DNA of 64,000 bases. Source: Actinotalea caeni. GTDB lineage: Bacteria; Actinomycetota; Actinomycetes; Actinomycetales; Beutenbergiaceae. Every line of letters starts with the position of its first letter. Position 1 is the first letter of the stretch. The stretch is from contig NZ_WNXX01000008.1 in assembly GCF_009733795.1 (NCBI RefSeq), positions 62,001 through 126,000 on the forward strand, given 5' to 3'. The position numbers were made by a program, and so were the translations under genes. Below are positions 15,919 to 25,034 of this stretch, piece by piece. Below the pieces are notes generated by a model. That model worked only from the letters and a program-made list of their open reading frames with translations. It did no database searches and had not been told where the DNA came from.

Positions 15919-16854
15919 GTGGTCGAGACGAGAGCGTGCTGCGCGCCGTCGCGGCCGGCGAGCGCGGCCGGGCGACCGGTCGCCGTCGCCGGGTCGGGCG
16001 GGCCGGCGGGCGACGTCGTCGAGCTGGCCGGCGGCTCGTTCCTCATGGGCGGCGACGACCCGGATGCCAACCCGCTCGACGGCGAGGGCCCGGTCCGCGA
16101 GGTCGTGCTGTCGCCGTACGCGATCGGCGCCACGCAGGTGACGACGGCGCAGCTCGCCGCGTTCGTCGAGGCCACCGGGTACGTGACGGAGGCGGAGGAG
16201 ATCGGCTGGTCCTACGTCTTCGCGGGCTTCCTGCCGGCCGCGCTGCGTGCGGTGTCGCCGCGCGTGGAGCAGGCGCCGTGGTGGTGCGCCGTCGAGGGCG
16301 CGTCGTGGCGCGCGCCCGAGGGGCCCGGCTCCGACGTCACCGACCGGGCCGACCACCCCGCGGTGCACGTGTCGTGGCGCGACGCCGAGGCCTACGCGGC
16401 CTGGGTCGGCGGCCGGCTGCCCACCGAGGCGGAGTGGGAGCACGCCGCGCGCGGCGGGCTGGTCCAGGCGCGCTACCCCTGGGGCGACGAGCTCACCCCG
16501 GGCGGGGTGCACATGTGCAACATCTGGCAGGGGCGCTTCCCCACCAGGAACACCGCGGAGGACGGCTACCGCGGCACCTGCCCGGTGCGGGCGTTCCCAC
16601 CGAACGGTTACGGCCTGTACGGCGTCGCGGGCAACGTGTGGGAGATGGTCGCCGACCGATGGGGCACCGAGCACACCACCGCCGTCCAGCACGACCCGCG
16701 CGGCCCGGCTCACGGCGAGGCCCGCGTGATGCGCGGCGGCTCCTACCTGTGCCACGACTCCTACTGCAACCGCTACCGGGTCGCCGCCCGCACCAGCAAC
16801 ACCCCGGACTCCTCCTCGGGCAACCAGGGCTTCCGGGTCGCGTTCGACCGGTGA
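15919..16854 (+). CDS. Formylglycine-generating enzyme (FGE/SUMF1 type)
   Basis: 311 aa from a GTG. It would oxidise a Cys in CxPxR of target sulfatases to formylglycine, using O2 and Cu(I). The whole family fold is present from about residue 37 ([14 protein letters not shown]), through [15 protein letters not shown] to [11 protein letters not shown]. The active-site pair is intact: Cys278 and Cys283 in [15 protein letters not shown], followed by the conserved R and the [13 protein letters not shown] tail, which separates true FGE from the many catalytically different relatives. No signal peptide. No sulfatase lies in this window, so the client is elsewhere. Confidence 0.92.
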
Positions 16855-16933
16855 CCGACTAGCGTCGGGTGTGCGTGCCGGACGGTCGTGCCGGCCCGCC
16901 GCCGTCTGCGTGCCGACTCCGGGAGGAACACCG

Positions 16934-17944
16934 ATGACACTGCCGCTGCGACTGGGGTACAAGGCGTCCGCGGAGCAGTTCGCGCCGCGGGAGCTGGTGG
17001 AGCTGGCCGTCGTGGCCGAGGGCGCGGGATTCGAGTCCGCGACCGTCTCCGACCACTTCCAGCCGTGGCGTCACGAGGGCGGGCACGCGCCGTTCTCGCT
17101 CGCGTGGCTGACGGCGGTCGGCGAGCGGACCTCGACGATCCGGCTGGGCACGAGCGTGATGACGCCGACGTTCCGGTACAACCCGGCTGTCGTCGCGCAG
17201 GCGTTCGCCACGATGGGTCTGCTCTACCCGGGCCGGGTGTTCCTCGGCGTCGGCACCGGCGAGGCGCTCAACGAGATCGCCTCGGGCTGGAAGGGCGAGT
17301 GGCCGCCGTTCAAGGAGCGTTTCGCGCGGCTCCGGGAGGCCGTCGACCTCATGCGGGCGCTCTGGACCGGTGACCGGGTGACCTTCGAGGGCGAGCACTA
17401 CTCGACCGTCGACGCCTCGATCTACGACACCCCCGACGGCGGCGTGCCGATCTACGTCGCGGCGGGCGGCCCCGTCGTCGCCCGTTACGCCGGCCGCGCC
17501 GGCGACGGCTTCATCTGCACGTCGGGCAAGGGCGCCGAGCTCTACACCGAGCAGCTGCTGCCGGCGGTCGCCGAGGGCGCGGAGAAGGCGGGCCGTGACG
17601 TCGAGTCGATCGACCGGATGATCGAGATCAAGATCTCCTACGACACCGACGCCGACGCCGCGCTGCAGAACACCCGCTTCTGGGCCCCGCTCGCGCTGAG
17701 CAAGGAGCAGAAGCACGACATCACCGACCCGCTGGAGATGGAGAAGGCCGCAGACGCGCTGCCGATCGAGCAGATCGCGTCGCGCTGGATCGTCGGCTCC
17801 GACCCCGAGGAGGTCGCGGCGCAGGTGCGCCAGTACGTCGACTGGGGCCTCAACCACCTGGTGTTCCACTTCCCCGGGCACGACCAGCGGCGGGCGATCG
17901 AGCTGTTCAGCCGCGATGTCGCGCCGCTGCTGCGGGAGGGCTGA
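16934..17944 (+). CDS. fgd: F420-dependent glucose-6-phosphate dehydrogenase
   Basis: 336 aa with GGGAGGA before the ATG. A luciferase-like TIM barrel that oxidises glucose-6-phosphate to 6-phosphogluconolactone and reduces F420 to F420H2. The Fgd pattern is clear: [19 protein letters not shown] at the N terminus, the catalytic-region [34 protein letters not shown] and [15 protein letters not shown]. Cytoplasmic. It supplies F420H2 to reductases such as the DDN-like protein at 12077. It starts 79 bp after the FGE gene, apparently as its own unit. Confidence 0.93.
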
Positions 17945-17972
17945 GCGAGGCGACCGGGCCGTCCTGGCGGTC

Positions 17973-19535
17973 TCAGCCGCCCAGGGTGCCGGCGAGCCGG
18001 GAGTGCCGGCGGGCGCTGTCGTCGTTCATCCCCACGATCGTGACCGTCTTGCCCCTGCGCTCGTAGCGCTGCGCGACGGCGTCGAGCGCCGCGACCGAGG
18101 ACGCGTCCCAGATGTGCGCCTTCGACACGTCGATGACGATCTCGCGCGGGTCGCCGGTGTAGTCGAACTGGTACACGAGGTCGTTGGAGGAGGCGAAGAA
18201 CAGCTCGCCCTCGACGGCGTAGACCCGCCGGTCGCCGTCGTCGCTGGCGTCGAGCCGGACCACCCGGGTGAGGTGGGCGACGCGGCGCGCGAACGCGACC
18301 ATCGCGGCCAGCACGCCTGCGAGCACGCCGTAGGCGAGGTTGTCGGTGGCGACGGTGACCCCGACCGTCGTCAGCATGACCAGCGTCTCGGAGCGGGGCA
18401 TCCGGCGCAGGGTGCGCCAGCGCACCGAGTGCCAGTCGAAGGTGCCGACGGCGACCATCACCATGACCGCGACCAGCGCGGCCATCGGCATGATCGCCAC
18501 CAGGTCGCCCAGCCCGACGACGAGCACGAGGAGGAACACCCCGGCGAGGAACGTCGAGATCCGGGTGCGGGCGCCCGAGACCTTCACGTTGATCATCGTC
18601 TGGCCGATCATGGCGCAGCCGCCCATGCCGCCGAAGAACCCGGTGACGACGTTGGCGACGCCCTGCCCCCACGCCTCGCGGGTCTTGTTCGAGTGGGTGT
18701 CGGTGATGTCGTCGACGAGCTTGGCGGTGAGCAGCGACTCCAGCAGCCCGACCACCGCCATCGTGAGCGCGACCGGCGCGACGATGCGCAGCGTCTCCCA
18801 GGTGAGCGGGACGTCGGGGACCAGCAGCTGCGGCAGCGACTCGGGCAGCTCGCCCTCGTCGCCGACCGTCGGCACCCGGATCGCGGCGAGCACGGTCACC
18901 GCGGTCAGCAGCACGATCGCGACCAGCGGCGCCGGCACGACGGTGGTCCAGCGCGGCAGCAGCACCATGACGACGATCCCGACGGCGAACAGCGGGTACA
19001 CCTGCCACGGCACGTCGACCAGGTGCGGCAGCTGCGCGACGAAGATGAGGATCGCGAGCGAGTTGACGAACCCGACCATCACCGAGCGCGGGATGAACCG
19101 CATGAGCCGTGCGACGCCGAGCGCGCCGAGCGCGACCTGGAGCAGCCCGCCGAGCACGACGGTGGCGAGCAGGTAGTCGACGCCGTGGTCGCGCACGACC
19201 GGGGCGACGACGAGCGCGACGGCGCCGGTCGCGGCGGAGATCATCGCGGGCCGGCCGCCGACGATCGCAATCGTCACCGCCATGGTGAAGGACGCGAACA
19301 GGCCCAGCCTGGGGTCCACGCCGGCGATGATCGAGAACGCGATGGCCTCGGGGATCAGGGCGAGCGCCACGACCAGGCCGCCCAGCACCTCGGTGCGCAG
19401 CCGGCGCGGCGAGCGCAGCGCGGACCGCACCGACCAGGACGTGTCGGCCTCAGGCGGCCCCTCGACCGGGGCGGGCGCCGCGGTGGCGTCGGTCGGCTGC
19501 GCGGGGTCGTGCTGGGGCGCAGGGGTCTCGGGCAC
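17973..19535 (-). CDS. SulP-family anion transporter with STAS domain
   Basis: 520 aa from a GTG. An acidic/proline-rich N terminus leads to a membrane core of 10-14 helices (about 45-415) with the SulP signature GLVVALALIPEAIAFSII near TM1 and the amphipathic GFFGGMGGCAMIGQTMIN loop. A C-terminal STAS domain (about 425-515) ends in HIWDASSVAALDAVAQRY, a match to its conserved helix. Likely bicarbonate or sulfate uptake by proton/sodium symport; no neighbouring carbonic anhydrase or sulfate gene decides this. Confidence 0.92.
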   Translation of the reverse strand: MPETPAPQHDPAQPTDATAAPAPVEGPPEADTSWSVRSALRSPRRLRTEVLGGLVVALALIPEAIAFSIIAGVDPRLGLFASFTMAVTIAIVGGRPAMISAATGAVALVVAPVVRDHGVDYLLATVVLGGLLQVALGALGVARLMRFIPRSVMVGFVNSLAILIFVAQLPHLVDVPWQVYPLFAVGIVVMVLLPRWTTVVPAPLVAIVLLTAVTVLAAIRVPTVGDEGELPESLPQLLVPDVPLTWETLRIVAPVALTMAVVGLLESLLTAKLVDDITDTHSNKTREAWGQGVANVVTGFFGGMGGCAMIGQTMINVKVSGARTRISTFLAGVFLLVLVVGLGDLVAIMPMAALVAVMVMVAVGTFDWHSVRWRTLRRMPRSETLVMLTTVGVTVATDNLAYGVLAGVLAAMVAFARRVAHLTRVVRLDASDDGDRRVYAVEGELFFASSNDLVYQFDYTGDPREIVIDVSKAHIWDASSVAALDAVAQRYERRGKTVTIVGMNDDSARRHSRLAGTLGG

Positions 19536-19559
19536 GCTGCGGCTCCTTCGATCTGTGAG

Positions 19560-19579
19560 CCCGGCCGTCGGCGGCCGGG
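19560..19579 (-). terminator. Hairpin after the GT2 operon
   Basis: CCCGGCCG (19560-19567) and CGGCCGGG (19572-19579) form an 8-bp stem with loop TCGG, 28 bp after the GT2 stop and 25 bp before the SulP start. There is no U-run, as is common for high-G+C terminators. Confidence 0.55.
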
Positions 19580-19607
19580 TGGAGCGCGCGACGCTGCGCT
19601 GGACGGC

Positions 19608-20612
19608 CTACACCCTAGCCCTGCGCGTGCCGGACGGCGGACCGGCCGGCGCGCGCAGGGTCCCGAGGCGACGGCGCAGCACCCGCGCCGGGGTCGCGGC
19701 GCGGCGCAGCCAGCGGCCGCGGTACGGCACACCGCCGCGCAGCCGCTGCAGCAGCGCGAGCCAGACGGTCACGGCGCGCTCGGCGCCCCACGCCGGCGCC
19801 CACAGCGCCGACGACGCCGGGAAGACGGCGCGGCCCCCGGCGCGCCGTCGGCCCACCTCGGCGAGCCCGACGAGCGCCAGCGCGAGCAGCCCGGCCGCCC
19901 GGGCCCGGTGCCGCGAGCCGAGCAGCACCGGCAGCACCGCGGCCTCCAGCAGCAACCGGCCGGGCTGCGCGAGGTCGTCGTAGGCCTGCCGCACACGCTG
20001 GTCGAGGAACTGCCGCACGTCCGGCGGGCGGCGCACGACGAGGATGTCGGGCCTGTCGAGCACGACCCCGAGGCGTGCCCGCACCGTGCGCTCCATCTCG
20101 AGGTTCTCGAACAGCACGTCGGCGTCGTAGCCGCCCGGCAGCAGCGCCGAGCGGCGCACCGCGTACGTGCCCGGGTAGTCGCAGGCGACCGCCCGGTTGA
20201 GCAGGGAGCGTGCGGTGTCCCAGCGGGCGTGCCAGGGCAGCGGGTCGAAGTGGTTCTGCGGTCGGACGAGGTCCGCGCCCGCCGCGGCTGCTACCAGCCG
20301 GGCGAGGGTCGTACGGTCGTGCCGGACGTCGTCGTCGGCGAGCACGACGATCTCGTGCCGCGCGAGCGCGAGCCCGGTGAGCACCCCGTTCACCTTGCCG
20401 TTCGCGCCGCGGTCGCACGCGACCGGGACGTGGCGCACGAGCGCGCCCCAGGCCCGCGCGTGCTCGGCGAAGGCGACCGGCTCGGAGCCGTCGACGACCG
20501 TGACGTCGAGCCAGTCCCGCAGCCGGCCCAGGTACGCGGTCATCTCGTCGCACGGCTCGCCGGGCGACCACCGCAGCGGGATCACGCACTCCGCCGGGAG
20601 CCGCGGGCCCAT
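19608..20612 (-). CDS. Family 2 glycosyltransferase
   Basis: 334 aa. ATG at 20612 overlaps the CDGSH stop (ATGA). The GT-A fold is shown by IPLRWSPGE at the N terminus, ANGKVNGVLTG, the metal-binding LADDDVR (Asp93-95) and, further on, FENLEMERTVR, which holds the likely catalytic acidic residues. Two hydrophobic helices near residues 235-265 may anchor it to the membrane. Substrate not evident. It is the last gene of a tightly overlapping triad with a di-iron oxidase-like enzyme and a CDGSH protein. Confidence 0.85.
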   Translation of the reverse strand: MGPRLPAECVIPLRWSPGEPCDEMTAYLGRLRDWLDVTVVDGSEPVAFAEHARAWGALVRHVPVACDRGANGKVNGVLTGLALARHEIVVLADDDVRHDRTTLARLVAAAAGADLVRPQNHFDPLPWHARWDTARSLLNRAVACDYPGTYAVRRSALLPGGYDADVLFENLEMERTVRARLGVVLDRPDILVVRRPPDVRQFLDQRVRQAYDDLAQPGRLLLEAAVLPVLLGSRHRARAAGLLALALVGLAEVGRRRAGGRAVFPASSALWAPAWGAERAVTVWLALLQRLRGGVPYRGRWLRRAATPARVLRRRLGTLRAPAGPPSGTRRARV

Positions 20613-20812
20613 CAGTCGTCCGTGCGGAACCCGGCGGGCTTGTGCGACCCGTCGCAGAAGGGCTTGATCGTCGACAGCCCGCACCGGCACAGCGCGACGG
20701 TGCGACGCCGGCGCTCGATCGGGGCGCCGTCGGGCCCGAGGAGGTCGACGTCGCCACGGACCAGGATCGGGCCGTCCGGGTAGGGCGTGATGGTCGCGCG
20801 CTCCTCAGCCAT
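20612..20812 (-). CDS. CDGSH iron-sulfur domain protein
   Basis: 66 aa. A single CDGSH cluster motif binds a [2Fe-2S] centre through Cys42, Cys44, Cys53 and His57 (CRCGLSTIKPFCDGSH). The preceding PDGPILVRGDVDL strand is typical of the small bacterial type. It begins 8 bp inside the upstream di-iron enzyme gene and ends inside the start codon of the GT2 gene, so the three products are translationally coupled. Probable electron donor or redox partner of the upstream enzyme (inference). Confidence 0.93.
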   Translation of the reverse strand: MAEERATITPYPDGPILVRGDVDLLGPDGAPIERRRRTVALCRCGLSTIKPFCDGSHKPAGFRTDD

Positions 20813-21851
20813 GGTCGGGTGACCTCCGCAGCGACGACCGGCCGTGCTCCCACGCCGTCAGCATGTGACCGCCGACCCAGGCGTCGGCCGCCAGGCACGC
20901 GGCGGCGCCGAACATGATGTCCGGCAGCAGCTCGGGCCGGTCCTCGGCCAGCGCACCCGCGAGGTCGCGCCCGGCGATCTGCTCGTGGACGGCGTCGGCC
21001 TCGACGTGCTCGTCGAAGTAGTCGGTGACGTCCTCGCCGTGGCCGAGCCGGCGCAGCCCGGTGGCGTAGAAGCGGTTGGGGATCGACGACGTCATCTCGA
21101 ACGCCGCCAGGTGCCCGACGATCGCACCGAGGAGCCGCCGGTTGAGACCGATCATCGACATGAGGTTGTGCGAGGCGAGCGTGACGGCGGGGACGTCGTC
21201 GACGTAGGCGCCGTAGGTGTCGTCGAGCCCGACGGCGCGCATCGCCTTCGCGAAGATCGCCGCGTGCATGCGGTCGGGCCGGCCGCCGCCGTACTCGTCG
21301 GCCTGGATCTCGACGAGTGCCGCCTTCGCGCGGCCGGACAGCCGCGGGATCGCCCACGAGTGCGGGTCGGCCTCGCGGAGCGTGTAGATCGAGCGCTGCA
21401 CGAAGAACTCGCGCACCTGCTCGGCGGTCGCGCGCTTGGCGAGGTAGCGCGACAGGCTGGGGCCGGTGTCGTCGCTGGTGAGGTGGAACAGTGCGCGGGC
21501 GACGGCGTCGCCTGTCGGCGGCGGCAGCTCCGGCACCGGGACCGCGGCCCGGACGGCGTGCTCGAGGCCTGCCTCGAGCAGCAGCCTGGTCTCGATGAGC
21601 GCCGGGTCCCACTCGAGGTCGGCCGCGAGCGCCGGGATCGAGCCGTAGGCGGAGGCGTAGAGGGTGAAGAGGGCGAGCTGGATGTCGTCGTCGCGGACGA
21701 CGTCCGCGGTGCCGGCGACGGCGGAGCGTGCGAGGGCGTCGAGCGCCCGGTCCCGCTCGGTGCCCGTGAGGCGGCGCAGCACCGCGTCGCTCAGCGGCCC
21801 GCGCGAGGTGAACGGCTGCTGGGTGGCCGTGTCGAGGGTGGTGGTGACCAC
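20805..21851 (-). CDS. Iron-containing redox enzyme, heme-oxygenase-like (HDO/TENA-THI4 fold)
   Basis: 348 aa from GTG at 21851, placed by GGAGG 5 nt upstream. An all-helical protein with candidate metal ligands spread along the chain: IQADEYGGGRPDRMHA, the DDTYGAYVDDVP region, HLAAFEMTSSIPNRFYATGL and VTDYFDEHVEADAVHE. This arrangement (E...H...E...D/H) is typical of HDO enzymes such as UndA and SznF-like N-oxygenases, which use two non-heme irons and O2. The reaction is unknown. It is the first gene of the triad with CDGSH and GT2. Confidence 0.85.
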   Translation of the reverse strand: MVTTTLDTATQQPFTSRGPLSDAVLRRLTGTERDRALDALARSAVAGTADVVRDDDIQLALFTLYASAYGSIPALAADLEWDPALIETRLLLEAGLEHAVRAAVPVPELPPPTGDAVARALFHLTSDDTGPSLSRYLAKRATAEQVREFFVQRSIYTLREADPHSWAIPRLSGRAKAALVEIQADEYGGGRPDRMHAAIFAKAMRAVGLDDTYGAYVDDVPAVTLASHNLMSMIGLNRRLLGAIVGHLAAFEMTSSIPNRFYATGLRRLGHGEDVTDYFDEHVEADAVHEQIAGRDLAGALAEDRPELLPDIMFGAAACLAADAWVGGHMLTAWEHGRSSLRRSPDHG

Positions 21852-21934
21852 GGGGTCCTCCGGAAGGGTGGTGGGAGAGGACGGCACCGACCGGCGGGCT
21901 CGAGGGCCCGTCCGGTCGGTGCCGGGGTGACGGA

Positions 21935-22138
21935 TCAGCGGGAGGCGTCCCGCATGCCGTCGGCGGCGTCGCGGAGGCCGTCCTTGAGGTACTCGCCGGC
22001 CTGCTTGGCCTTCGCGCCCGCCTGGTCGGCGGCACCCTCGGCCTGCAGCTCGCGGTCGTCGGTAGCGTCGCCGACGCCCTCCTTGGCCTTGCCGAGGGCT
22101 TCCTGAGCCTTGTTCCCGATCTTGTCGTCGAGACCCAT
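21935..22138 (-). CDS. CsbD-family stress protein
   Basis: 67 aa with GGAG 8 nt before the ATG. The sequence is almost all charged and Ala/Gly residues with KIGNKAQEALGKAKEGVGDA, the CsbD core, repeated once in degenerate form (AADQAGAKAKQAGEYLKDG). Small soluble four-helix stress proteins, often under general stress sigma control. It is 83 bp upstream of the HDO gene and could be co-transcribed. Confidence 0.9.
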   Translation of the reverse strand: MGLDDKIGNKAQEALGKAKEGVGDATDDRELQAEGAADQAGAKAKQAGEYLKDGLRDAADGMRDASR

Positions 22139-22261
22139 GTGCTTCTCCTTCCACACCTGGCCGCCAGGGATGTCAGCGGCTGCCTCGCCGGTACCCGTTG
22201 AGCAACGGTGCATGCACGCGACGGGATATGCACGCATCCCCGCGTGCTCGGTCCACGGCGT

Positions 22262-22329
22262 CGAGATCGAGCTTCTGGGTCGAGATCGAGGGTGCAGATC
22301 CTCGATCTCGACTCAGAAGCTCGATCTCG
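22262..22329. repeat. 68-bp quadruple inverted element of a different sequence family
   Basis: CGAGATCGAG at 22262-22271 and 22281-22290, its inverse CTCGATCTCG at 22301-22310 and 22320-22329. Spacers are 9, 10 and 9 nt, and the two 9-nt spacers also pair apart from one G.U, giving a 29-bp stem with a 10-nt loop. It lies 84 bp after the nicotinamidase-like gene stop, so it may terminate that operon. Confidence 0.93.
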
Positions 22330-22412
22330 GCGGCTGGGGGCGGCGGGGTGGTGCCGGCCGGGGGTGGGGGCGGCCCGGTGTCGTGGTGGCGGGTGTGGTC
22401 GGAGTGCCCGGC

Positions 22413-23003
22413 TCAGGCGTCGGCCGGGCCGTCGCGCAGCAGCGCGAGGCTCGCGGCCTGGTCGAGGACGGGCTGGCGCATCTCGTCGGTGAGGAACTCC
22501 AGCATCGCCTCCGACAGGCCCGTGTTCTCCGAGGCGATCGCGTCGCCCGCGATCGCGACGTGGTAGTCGTGCGCGAACGCCGAGGTGGCGGTCGCGGCGA
22601 CGCAGCTGTGGGTCGACACCCCGCCCAGCAGCAGGTGGGTGACACCGAGCTCGGTGAGGACCTCGTCGAGGCAGGTGCCGTGTAAGGCGTCGTCGCGGGT
22701 CTTGGTGATGTCGACGGCGTCGGTCGTGTCGAGCTCGTCGACGTAGGCGGCCTGCGCGGTGCCGGGGAACGCGAAGCCCTCGTCGTCGGCGTGCATGTTG
22801 ATCGTCCACGTCGAGCGGTCCCGCTCGTGCTCGGTGCGCACGAGCACGACCGGGCGGCCGGCCTCGCGCGCGGCGGCGACCAGCTCGTTGGCGCGGGCGA
22901 CGAGCTCGTCCTTGACGGCGGCGAGCTCGGGCGCCTCGAAGTAGGCGTTCTGCAGGTCGATGAGCAGCAGCGCGAGCGCCGAGCGCGACGCGGTGGCGGT
23001 CAC
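22413..23003 (-). CDS. Isochorismatase-family cysteine hydrolase (nicotinamidase-like)
   Basis: 196 aa from a GTG that overlaps the NadE stop (GTGA). The catalytic triad is complete: Asp16 ([10 protein letters not shown]), Lys101 ([10 protein letters not shown]) and Cys134 ([13 protein letters not shown]). The family hydrolyses nicotinamide to nicotinate, or isochorismate and other amides. Coupling to NAD synthetase makes a salvage role attractive, but the typical nicotinamidase metal motif (D-x-H-x-x-H) is not evident, so another amide substrate is possible. Confidence 0.9.
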
Positions 23004-23824
23004 GCCGTCCACCAGGTGTCGCTCGGGGTGACCGGTGTGGTGCGCTTGTGGCGCGTCCGGCGCCACGCGGCCTCGATGCGCTCGGCGACGCCGTCGGCCA
23101 CCTCGCGGCCCTCGACGTAGGCGTCGATGTCGTCGTAGGTGAGCCCGAGCTCGACCTCGTCGGGCTGGCCGGGCACGCCGTCGAGCAGGTCGGCGGTGGG
23201 CACCTTGGCCCACAGCCGCTCGGGTGCGCCGAGCTCGCGCAGCACCTCCCGGTTCTGCCGCTTGTCCAGACCGAACAGCGGCAGCACGTCGGCGGCGCCG
23301 TCGCCGAACTTCGTGAAGAACCCGGTGACCGACTCCGAGCCGTGGTCGGTGCCGATCACCACGAGGCCGCGGTCGCCCGCGAGCGCGTACTGCGCGACCA
23401 TCCGCAGCCGGGCCTTGGTGTTGCCCTTGGTGAAGTCGGTGACCGGCCGACCGGTCGCGCGCAGGTACTCGGCCTCGAACGCGTCGACCGCCTCGCCGAC
23501 GTCGAACGTCACCACCTCGTCGGCGGCCACGAACTCCAGGGCCGCCTGGGCGTCGTCCTCGTCGTGCTGCACCCGGTAGGGCAGCCGCACGGCGACGAAG
23601 ACCGCGTCACCGCCGGCCGCGCGTTGCCGCTCCACCGCGAGCTGGGCGAGCCGCCCGGCGAGCGTGGAGTCCAGGCCGCCCGAGATGCCGAGCACGTAGC
23701 CGCGTGCGCCGGTCTTCTCGAGGTAGTCGGCGAGGAACCGCGCCCTCCGCTCGATCTCGGTGGCGGGGTCGATGTCGGGCTGGACGCCCATCTCCTCGAC
23801 GATCCTCCGTTGCAGCTCGCGCAT
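23000..23824 (-). CDS. nadE: NH3-dependent NAD+ synthetase
   Basis: 274 aa starting at ATG 23824, which aligns with the E. coli NadE N terminus; a GTG 9 nt upstream is less likely. It amidates nicotinate adenine dinucleotide to NAD+ with ATP. The P-loop-like SGGLDST (48-54) and the [18 protein letters not shown] and [18 protein letters not shown] stretches are conserved substrate-binding segments. No glutaminase domain, so ammonia is the nitrogen source. The next gene, a cysteine hydrolase, overlaps its stop and could supply nicotinate and ammonia. Confidence 0.95.
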
Positions 23825-23911
23825 GCCGACCACGCTACGCGGTCCGGTGCCCTCGACCCCCTCCGGCTGCGGGGGTCGAGGGCCACGGACCGGTCGGGAC
23901 GGCGCCGTCGC

Positions 23912-24793
23912 TCACTCCTTGTTCAGCGCGTCCTGCGCGCGCCCGGCGAGCTTCTCGACGACGTTGGGCAGCTCGGTCGTGCCGTAGAACCGCGAGTCCG
24001 GGTGGGTGGGCGGCGGCATCGGGGCGGTCGTCGTCGGGCCGTCGTGGTAGCTGAACTCGCCGTGCCCGTCCGGGGTCGGCCCGGACGCCCACGAGCCCTC
24101 CTTGGCGTGCACGCCGTCGGAGAAGTTCAGGTACTGGGTGGCGACCTCGCGGTGCTCCTTCTCGAGCGGGAAGTTGCTCGGCACAGGCAGCTTCTCGGCG
24201 CCCTCCTCCTGCAGCTCCGCGACCGCGGCCAGCCACTGGTTCTGGTGCATCGTGTCCCGCGCCAGCAGGAAGGCGAGCAGGTCCCGCACGCCGTGGTCGT
24301 CGGTCATGTGGTAGAGCCGCGCCACCTGCACGCGGCCCTGCATCTCGGCGTTCGCGTTGGCCTGGAAGTCGGCGAGCAGGTTGCCGCTCGCGGTGATGTA
24401 GCTGCCCTGCCAGGGGTTGCCGTTGCTGTCGACCGGTCGCGCGCCGGCACCGGCGACGATCGCGTGCTGCACGTCGGTGCCGCCGACGATCGCCGCGACC
24501 GTCGGGTCGTCCTGCACCGCCTCCTCGGTGATCCCCAGGGGCGCCTTCTCGAGCAGCTGCGCGATCATGATCGCGAGCATCTCGACGTGGCCCAGCTCCT
24601 CGGCCCCGATGCCGAAGACGAGGTCGCGGTACTTGCCCGGGATGTGCATGTTCCAGGCCTGGAACTGGTACTGCATGGCGACCGTGATCTCGCCGTACTG
24701 GCCGCCCAGCACCTCCTGCAGCTTGCGGGCGTAGACGGCGTCCGGGCGCTCCGGTGTGGCGTTGAACTGGAGCTCCTGCTTGTGGAAGAACAT
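23912..24793 (-). CDS. Manganese catalase
   Basis: 293 aa. The start at 24793 has GGAGG 5 nt upstream and gives the family N terminus (MFFHKQELQF); a frame to 24838 adds residues not usual in the family. Decomposes H2O2 with a di-Mn centre. Ligands correspond to Glu35, Glu66 and His69 (GAEELGHVEM), Glu150 (ANAEMQGR) and His183 (RDTMHQNQW), matching Lactobacillus-type spacing. The C-terminal Pro-rich tail (about 240-293) is variable in the family. Cytoplasmic. Confidence 0.94.
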   Translation of the reverse strand: MFFHKQELQFNATPERPDAVYARKLQEVLGGQYGEITVAMQYQFQAWNMHIPGKYRDLVFGIGAEELGHVEMLAIMIAQLLEKAPLGITEEAVQDDPTVAAIVGGTDVQHAIVAGAGARPVDSNGNPWQGSYITASGNLLADFQANANAEMQGRVQVARLYHMTDDHGVRDLLAFLLARDTMHQNQWLAAVAELQEEGAEKLPVPSNFPLEKEHREVATQYLNFSDGVHAKEGSWASGPTPDGHGEFSYHDGPTTTAPMPPPTHPDSRFYGTTELPNVVEKLAGRAQDALNKE

Positions 24794-24952
24794 CGTGCCT
24801 CCGTCCGGCGCCGCGACGGGGATCGGTCGGGCGACCATGGGCGGCGCCTCCGTCAGGGCACCACGCGCGGGTGGCGCGTTCCACCGGGTTGACACCGCAG
24901 CCTGCGCGGGAGTATCTGCGCGGCCCCGGGCGGCGGTCCGGCGTCGGGAGCC

Positions 24953-25034
24953 GCGGCGGAGACCGGGCGCTCGACGGCGTCGCAACCGCGCGTGCAGCGG
25001 CCCGAGCGCCCGTCGAGCGCCCGGTCTCCGCCGC
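24953..25034 (-). terminator. Long perfect hairpin after the YihY operon
   Basis: Arms 24953-24977 and 25010-25034 are perfectly complementary over 25 bp around a 32-nt loop, starting 6 bp after the YihY stop. The arm core is GAGCGCCCGGTCTCC on the + strand right side. Part of the right arm (GAGCGCCCG) is repeated at 25004 and 25015. No U-run follows; likely a strong terminator or mRNA-protecting hairpin. Confidence 0.7.

Follow-up and report, generated by a model that had tools for sequence, protein, structure and literature searches.

A coupled HDO, CDGSH and glycosyltransferase gene unit in Actinotalea caeni as a possible local form of a stress-linked N-oxygenase module

Introduction

Three adjacent genes on the minus strand of a 64,000-nucleotide stretch of the Actinotalea caeni genome (contig NZ_WNXX01000008.1, positions 62,001 to 126,000; hereafter the window) encode a heme-oxygenase-like diiron enzyme (HDO), a small [2Fe-2S] protein of the CDGSH type and a family 2 glycosyltransferase (GT2), and the question raised by this locus is whether the three proteins act together and, if so, in what chemistry. 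A sequence-only reading of the window had proposed a possible undescribed small pathway, with an oxidation that has its own electron supply, followed by glycosylation. The analysis reported here indicates that the three genes are a real, conserved and coupled unit. We favor, tentatively and at a little short of an even chance, the reading that the triad is a local version of a stress-linked module of actinobacteria, in which an HDO N-oxygenase is served by a dedicated [2Fe-2S] donor and by tailoring enzymes that differ from lineage to lineage.

Results

The members of the unit, with positions counted from the first letter of the window, are as follows.
20805..21851, minus strand: HDO, 348 amino acids (aa), PF14518 at 204.7 bits
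20612..20812, minus strand: CDGSH [2Fe-2S] protein, 66 aa, PF09360 at 72.2 bits
19608..20612, minus strand: GT2, a membrane-type GT-A glycosyltransferase, 334 aa, PF13506 at 28 bits

The HDO gene starts with a GTG at 21851, preceded by a GGAGG ribosome site, and stops at 20805, with 8 bp (20805-20812) in common with the CDGSH gene. The stop codon of the CDGSH gene (TGA, 20614-20612) and the ATG of the GT2 gene (20612-20610) share 1 bp in the string TGATG. The overlaps had been given as 8 and 4 bp; the first of these values stands, but the second is replaced by 1 bp, as a 4-bp overlap would require a CTG start and the GT2 homologs align from near the ATG. The three family assignments made beforehand were borne out by scores above the Pfam cut-offs (28.9 bits for PF14518, 29.5 for PF09360 and 21.7 for PF13506) and by the GT-A fold of the GT2 model; PF00535 reaches 22.3 bits in GT2, slightly below its cut-off of 23.3, and none of the three proteins is matched by an NCBIfam model at E 0.001. 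The genome of A. caeni holds one match each for PF14518, PF09360 and PF05067, the last being the model used to search for manganese catalase, and all of these lie within the window.

Conservation of the unit was surveyed in two sets of loci. The close relatives, actinobacteria of the kind of Microbacterium, Leucobacter and Arthrobacter, are the best 80 of 512 that were confirmed in the genome collection, and since only these 80 were kept, the set is skewed toward near kin. The phylum-wide sample consists of 396 Actinomycetota genomes, 62 of which contain the HDO subfamily when it is called at E up to 1e-20, and 64 regions from the 61 other HDO-bearing genomes make up the phylum-wide loci (labels: L, surveyed locus; G, genome; f, family; g, genus). 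In 76 of the 80 close relatives (L065 ends at a contig edge), a same-strand CDGSH gene follows HDO within 3 kb downstream, and 41 of the 64 phylum-wide loci have a CDGSH gene within 3 kb of HDO, where its placement is downstream on the opposite strand (20), downstream on the same strand (13), upstream on the same strand (6) or upstream on the opposite strand (2). GT2 is found within 3 kb of HDO in 22 close and 11 phylum-wide loci. All three genes occur together in 18 of the 80 close relatives and 7 of the 64 phylum-wide loci, which removes the concern that the triad might be confined to one strain; of the 18 complete close loci, 7 have the order HDO-CDGSH-GT2 and 11 the order HDO-GT2-CDGSH. 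With starts assigned heuristically, 61 of the 80 close relatives show an overlap of 1-14 bp between HDO and the gene after it, be this CDGSH or GT2. Among the 20 of 396 genomes that carry the GT2 subfamily, 14 also carry HDO, which exceeds the chance expectation (hypergeometric p 2.5e-8, with no correction for ancestry). On a tree of 143 of the 145 HDO rows (those of at least 250 aa), GT2 presence requires at least 23 changes, of which well-supported branches force 7; CDGSH presence requires 7 changes, CDGSH orientation 9 and gene order 1. Based on these counts and tree changes, HDO and CDGSH are the core of the unit, and GT2 is a recurrent accessory.

The search for an HDO-CDGSH fusion in one open frame found none among the 64 phylum-wide loci. 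A HemK2-like methyltransferase gene lies in the region of 26 phylum-wide loci and of none of the close ones, and a YbdK-type ligase gene in that of 8 phylum-wide and 10 close loci. L137 (G236) carries a divergent pair of HDO genes separated by about 1 kb, with GT2 at one of the two, and G078, G107 and G298 have two HDO matches each. Sixteen annotated plasmid regions were also opened. PLSDB records L206, L207, L208, L210 and L212 are nearly featureless and gave no neighbor names. The 62-kb Curtobacterium plasmid pW21 carries an HDO-CDGSH pair (L198 4953-6262), and thus the core can be plasmid-borne.

With regard to the enzyme itself, residues E160, E186, H196, E252, H282, D286 and H289 are each kept in 142-144 of 145 HDO rows; three rows deviate, L171 at 6 of the 7 positions (a degenerate or misaligned sequence) and L175 and L176, which end at contig edges. 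These positions are the seven likely metal ligands, all intact in the window copy, and they were mapped onto SznF by sequence alignment and by what we take to be the SznF ligand list. The AlphaFold2 (AF2) model of HDO (predicted local distance difference test, pLDDT, 92.9) has a heme-oxygenase-like helical fold with HDOs as its top matches. The refuting condition set by the sequence-only reading itself, an HDO that lacks its metal ligands, does not apply, as the ligand residues are present. Structure matches ranked 1-9 are all entries of HrmI (Z 34.4, 2.4 Å over 314 residues), RohS (Z 29.1, 2.6 Å over 282 residues) or SznF (Z 28.3, 3.0 Å over 307 residues), and the matches span model residues 18-336, 49-348 and 10-348, respectively. 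Lower matches include the Pseudomonas aeruginosa entry 3bjd (Z 26.2), FlcD (25.5), CADD (19.5), BesC (17.8) and UndA (16.5), and chemistry of the UndA or BesC type was given a low rank. A profile search of PDB sequences with HDO returned SznF, RohS and HrmI only (E up to 0.01), and a single-sequence search added BesC at E 0.016. The ligand spacings E-x9-H and HxxxDxxH are also shared with HrmI, RohS and SznF. The window HDO is unlike these enzymes in its identity to them (16-20%), in having no cupin domain such as that of SznF, and in being coupled to a CDGSH gene, with several relatives located near stress genes instead of in an antibiotic cluster. Since sequence identities across the structural matches are low (12-20%), the ranking indicates fold kinship and is no proof of the reaction; judging from the model, HDO is probably an N-oxygenase.

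The GT2 protein provides a second line of evidence on the reaction. Its ADDD motif is invariant in 19 of 19 rows and a QR-[VI]-RQAY motif is conserved. Processive GT2 synthases carry a QxxRW motif; the present proteins show QR-x-RQ at that position, with the final Trp replaced by Gln in all 19 rows. The AF2 model (pLDDT 87.8) has a GT-A fold with C-terminal helices and a core resembling hyaluronan synthase (Z 20.2) and cellulose synthase (Z 17.4). Of the 20 genomes with this subfamily, 13 have GT2 adjoining HDO (the matched stretches are less than 50 bp apart in 12; in the window the CDGSH gene lies between them, 214 bp), and in G183 the two genes are on different contigs. Six of the 20 genomes belong to genus g112 (family f19), and HDO is not matched at E 1e-20 in any of the six. 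In five of them (L190-L194) there is a four-gene set comprising, in this order, a methyltransferase, GT2, a YqcI/YcgG protein, which is a GntA-type heme N-hydroxylase, and a DUF1989 protein; the contig of the sixth begins inside GT2. One of the five YqcI/YcgG genes was scanned with NCBIfam and is GntA (293.6 bits, cut-off 145), and four were scanned with Pfam and are PF08892. A midpoint-rooted GT2 tree places the g112 proteins in one clade (Shimodaira-Hasegawa-like approximate likelihood ratio test, SH-aLRT, 99), nested in a supported set of 17 rows (97) whose other members are 11 HDO-linked rows and a lone one. L056 and L194, the latter with its GT2 in two pieces, are not on this tree, and L196, where the contig ends before the GntA side, is assigned to the GntA group. 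Altogether, 18 of the 20 genomes have the GT2 subfamily adjoining either HDO or a YqcI/YcgG gene.

Enzymes of the YqcI/YcgG family are guanidine hydroxylases (PMC12866846), and one of them, ChmN, has been proposed as an arginine N-oxygenase that stands in for an HDO domain (PMC10849742). The g112 enzymes are thus partners of the same GT2 clade and have a precedent for replacement of an HDO domain; they differ from HDO in being heme enzymes of another family, of which the window has none. It is mainly because this GT2 clade swaps HDO for a GntA-type N-hydroxylase that N-oxygenation is proposed for HDO, and, taken with the modeled fold, it appears to be the likeliest HDO reaction, one that the sequence-only reading had not put forward.

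The CDGSH consensus is C-x-C-x2-(S/T)-x3-P-x-C-D-G-x-H, and the motif is complete in the window protein (CRCGLSTIKPFCDGSH). Its cluster ligands, C-x-C-x8-C-x3-H (three Cys and one His), vary in none of the 33 aligned rows, that of the window among them, in agreement with the complete ligand set noted beforehand. The protein is like other CDGSH (NEET) proteins of the PDB 3tbm type in this C-C-C-H set and in being a small single domain, and unlike them in that its gene is coupled to HDO, whose partner it putatively is. In two HDO loci, CDGSH is replaced by another [2Fe-2S] protein, of the Rieske type. In L174, an HDO with all seven ligands is followed by a Rieske gene at the position of CDGSH and then by a HemK2-like methyltransferase gene. 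On an Azospirillum plasmid (L201 4548-6295), a Rieske gene overlaps the preceding HDO-cupin gene by 4 bp, with an amino acid permease gene after it; the HDO-cupin protein has the SznF domain layout and is outside the present HDO subfamily. L201 is a candidate N-oxygenase or N-nitroso locus. A scan for ferredoxin-type motifs in genes within 2.5 kb of HDO found a small Rieske neighbor in L174 only, together with two matches in large proteins, and neither a CDGSH nor a Rieske gene was seen beside the distant plasmid homologs L202-L205. Because Rieske proteins replace CDGSH at these two loci, a role of CDGSH in electron transfer to HDO is proposed here as the favored, though not proven, function.

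The surroundings of the unit were then compared with those of its relatives. Upstream of HDO on the same strand, the window has genes for a CsbD-like protein, an isochorismatase-type protein, NadE and a manganese catalase, two of which recur below.
21935..22138, minus strand: CsbD-like protein, PF05532 at 54.4 bits, 83 bp upstream of HDO
23912..24838, minus strand: manganese catalase, NF052557 at 394.8 bits (open frame 23912-24985)

CsbD is a general-stress family, and the labels RsbR, RsbS and RsbT are readings of Pfam matches. The CsbD-like gene is possibly the first gene of the HDO transcript. The manganese catalase gene, about 2 kb upstream of HDO and the only one found in the A. caeni genome by the PF05067 search, is context outside the coupled unit; a manganese catalase gene is within the examined region of 10 of 80 close and 4 of 64 phylum-wide loci. 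No sigma-70 promoters or terminators were found in window positions 17500-25000. In L164, two STAS genes, an HATPase gene, a SpoIIE phosphatase gene and an RsbU-type gene, a stressosome-like set, stand directly before HDO; L161 has the same layout, and an RsbR relative is also present in L166. A Streptomyces plasmid has methyltransferase, CDGSH and HDO genes flanked by two SigB/SigF/SigG genes, and a Kitasatospora plasmid carries CsbD, STAS and YbdK genes beside HDO-CDGSH. On the latter (L199, 1914-5972), genes for the YbdK ligase and a dimethylargininase are directly upstream of HDO, and those for CDGSH and a HemK2-like methyltransferase are convergent; dimethylargininase was rejected as a regular partner, since it occurs only in L199, with a weak relative in L058, and it is excluded from the general evidence. 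Stress-gene neighbors hold for part of the relatives, and the picture of an isolated natural-product pathway gives way to a general-stress setting suggested by the surroundings in many of them.

A SigF-type promoter was found upstream of 16 of 145 HDO genes versus 66 of 1435 other genes. In Mycobacterium smegmatis, MSMEG_1771 (a putative methylase), 1772, 1773 and 1774 fall by 4.1-6.4 log2 units without sigF, and the same SigF list contains the manganese catalase MSMEG_6213 and the carboxylate-amine ligase MSMEG_5590 (PMC4694148). In that report, the methylase gene is followed by a second gene 667 nt on from the same promoter and then by a separately promoted gene, a layout that fits the convergent methyltransferase-CDGSH / HDO arrangement of the family f7 loci; the genes are given there as conserved hypothetical (PMC4694148), and their identity with HDO and CDGSH is our reading. 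Judging from order and spacing alone, MSMEG_1771, 1772 and 1773 would be the methyltransferase, CDGSH and HDO genes. From this context we infer that the window copy may be stress-regulated.

Discussion

From what was obtained directly, namely the coupling of the genes, their conservation, the intact metal- and cluster-ligand residues, the structural ranking of HDO, the partner swaps and the stress-gene neighbors in part of the relatives, we infer a reaction type, a substrate, a direction of electron flow, a glycosylation of the product and a protective role, as follows. The diferrous HDO would bind an amine or guanidine, with an arginine-like compound favored, together with O2, and a nitrogen atom of the substrate would be oxygenated. 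The co-translated CDGSH protein would give electrons from its [2Fe-2S] cluster back to the diferric site. Where present, the membrane GT2 may add a sugar to the oxidized product, and its place may elsewhere be taken by a HemK2-like methyltransferase or a YbdK ligase. The product, or the reaction itself, might protect stressed, stationary or drying cells. Of the earlier proposal of oxidation with dedicated electron supply and subsequent glycosylation, the first part thus remains plausible, with the [2Fe-2S] protein as the dedicated partner, and the second part is reduced to an optional accessory step.

An HDO with a role in stress has one precedent. The DtpC gene of Acinetobacter baumannii shares a transcript with katE; H2O2 in dried cells is kept down by either gene, and three metal-ligand mutants of DtpC fail (PMC13232832). 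DtpC was, according to its authors, the only HDO with a link to oxidative stress or desiccation, and the HDOs studied make small molecules; the authors also list iron sequestration, scavenging and the synthesis of a protective small molecule as options for DtpC (PMC13232832). The window HDO is like DtpC in its location near a catalase gene in a stress setting and in the spacing of 10 between E143 and H153 (E186 and H196 in the window HDO); it is unlike DtpC in belonging to a different phylum and in its partners, as a CDGSH protein and a glycosyltransferase are unmentioned in the main text on DtpC (PMC13232832). Because of the GT2 and methyltransferase partners, the window module appears to fit the small-molecule option best, and the other two options remain.

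The alternative that takes up those two options is that HDO-CDGSH is a direct oxidative-stress device, in which the diiron site is supplied with electrons by CDGSH and consumes O2 or peroxide, or else sequesters iron; no metabolite would be made, and GT2 and the methyltransferase would have other tasks. We consider this unlikely. In its favor, DtpC limits H2O2 in dried cells, with scavenging and iron sequestration listed by its authors (PMC13232832), and manganese catalase genes recur near HDO. The HDO fold, however, is closest to N-oxygenases that act on substrates, and since the GT2 clade lies beside HDO or YqcI/YcgG genes in nearly all of its genomes, a shared substrate is preferred over independent tasks.

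Another possibility concerns CDGSH, which could be a maturation factor that brings iron to a labile HDO diiron site or repairs it. HDO cofactors are unstable, NEET-type proteins can transfer clusters, and the HDO and CDGSH genes are very tightly coupled; nonetheless, the protein that replaces CDGSH in L174 and follows HDO-cupin in Azospirillum is a Rieske protein, typically an electron carrier, and we regard the maturation role as somewhat less likely still. Less probable again is that these genes are bystanders, which share a regulon at most and have separate functions. The neighbors do differ much among lineages, and the presence of GT2 changes many times on the HDO tree, but the overlap between HDO and the adjoining unit gene in most close loci, the persistence of the HDO-CDGSH pairing while order and strand vary, and the attachment of GT2 to N-oxygenase-type genes all argue for a functional link. 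A conventional exported natural product, in which HDO performs C-C or C-H chemistry of the UndA, BesC or FlcD type and GT2 glycosylates, for example, a lipid, is improbable, for despite the membrane-type GT2 with C-terminal helices and a hyaluronan-synthase-like core, the FlcD match and the recurrence of ABC transporters and a two-component system nearby, UndA and BesC match the core domain only and score below the N-oxygenases.

Returning to the stress-linked N-oxygenase module, a number of points weigh against it. Kinship of fold at 17-20% identity does not prove a reaction type, and CDGSH proteins are also capable of handling clusters or iron. GT2 is not within 3 kb of HDO in 58 of 80 close and 53 of 64 phylum-wide loci, and the same holds for CDGSH in 4 of 80 close and 23 of 64 phylum-wide loci, a number of them at contig ends. 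Non-stress neighbors also recur, namely a histidine kinase (14 loci), a response regulator (12) and ABC transporters (15 and 7). A SigF/SigB-type promoter (GTTT-N14-17-GGGTA) was not found within 300 bp of the window HDO, GT2 and CsbD starts, the GGGTA 58 bp upstream of the CsbD-like gene having no matching -35, and close relatives show no enrichment of the SigF promoter (3 of 80). The enrichment in family f7 (6 of 14 loci versus 58 of 868; Fisher p 2e-4) comes from a subset that was chosen after the matches had been seen and whose members are related. Finally, the M. smegmatis locus, when searched by its published promoter, was found in 0 of 396 genomes, so that the MSMEG assignment follows order and spacing, and a fuzzy match of the five published promoter strings to the 14 family f7 loci reached at best 24 of 32 letters, which is uninformative.

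The conserved HDO-CDGSH pair offers a concrete candidate for the natural electron donor of N-oxygenase HDOs; the RohS assays use phenazine methosulfate (PMS) and NADH, an artificial reducing system (PMC10724926). Through their neighbors in some of the lineages surveyed, HDOs become connected with the general stress response, in keeping with the one stress-protective HDO reported, DtpC. Two questions thereby become testable, namely the electron source of N-oxygenase HDOs and the products of stress-linked HDOs. A bolder and speculative version, unlikely as it stands, is a widespread Actinomycetota guanidine N-oxygenase system in which HDO and its CDGSH donor would make an N-hydroxyguanidine-type compound that is capped by GT2 or a methyltransferase and protects dry or stationary cells; if true, it would amount to a new class of protective metabolite and would give small CDGSH proteins a natural role as oxygenase partners. 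The protein families are known, and the HDO-CDGSH combination and its context look new within open-licence papers; no literature on the pair was found in open-licence PMC, which is a weak absence. A CDGSH gene has been named in the surroundings of AlkB alkane monooxygenases, which are another diiron enzyme (PMC11854999).

Additional features of the loci

Further recurrent neighbors of HDO are a short-chain dehydrogenase/reductase (SDR, 16) and an F420-type oxidoreductase (14). The two-component system is mostly 0.3-2.7 kb downstream on the same strand in Microbacterium-type loci (for example, L006 6437-7114). On the downstream side of the window triad, a SulP transporter gene follows at 72 bp, and just past it an F420-dependent glucose-6-phosphate dehydrogenase is encoded at 16871-17944 (TIGR03554, 644.7 bits). 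Window positions 15919-16854 hold a formylglycine-generating-enzyme-like (FGE-sulfatase) gene, which adjoins a gene resembling an AraC-type regulator.

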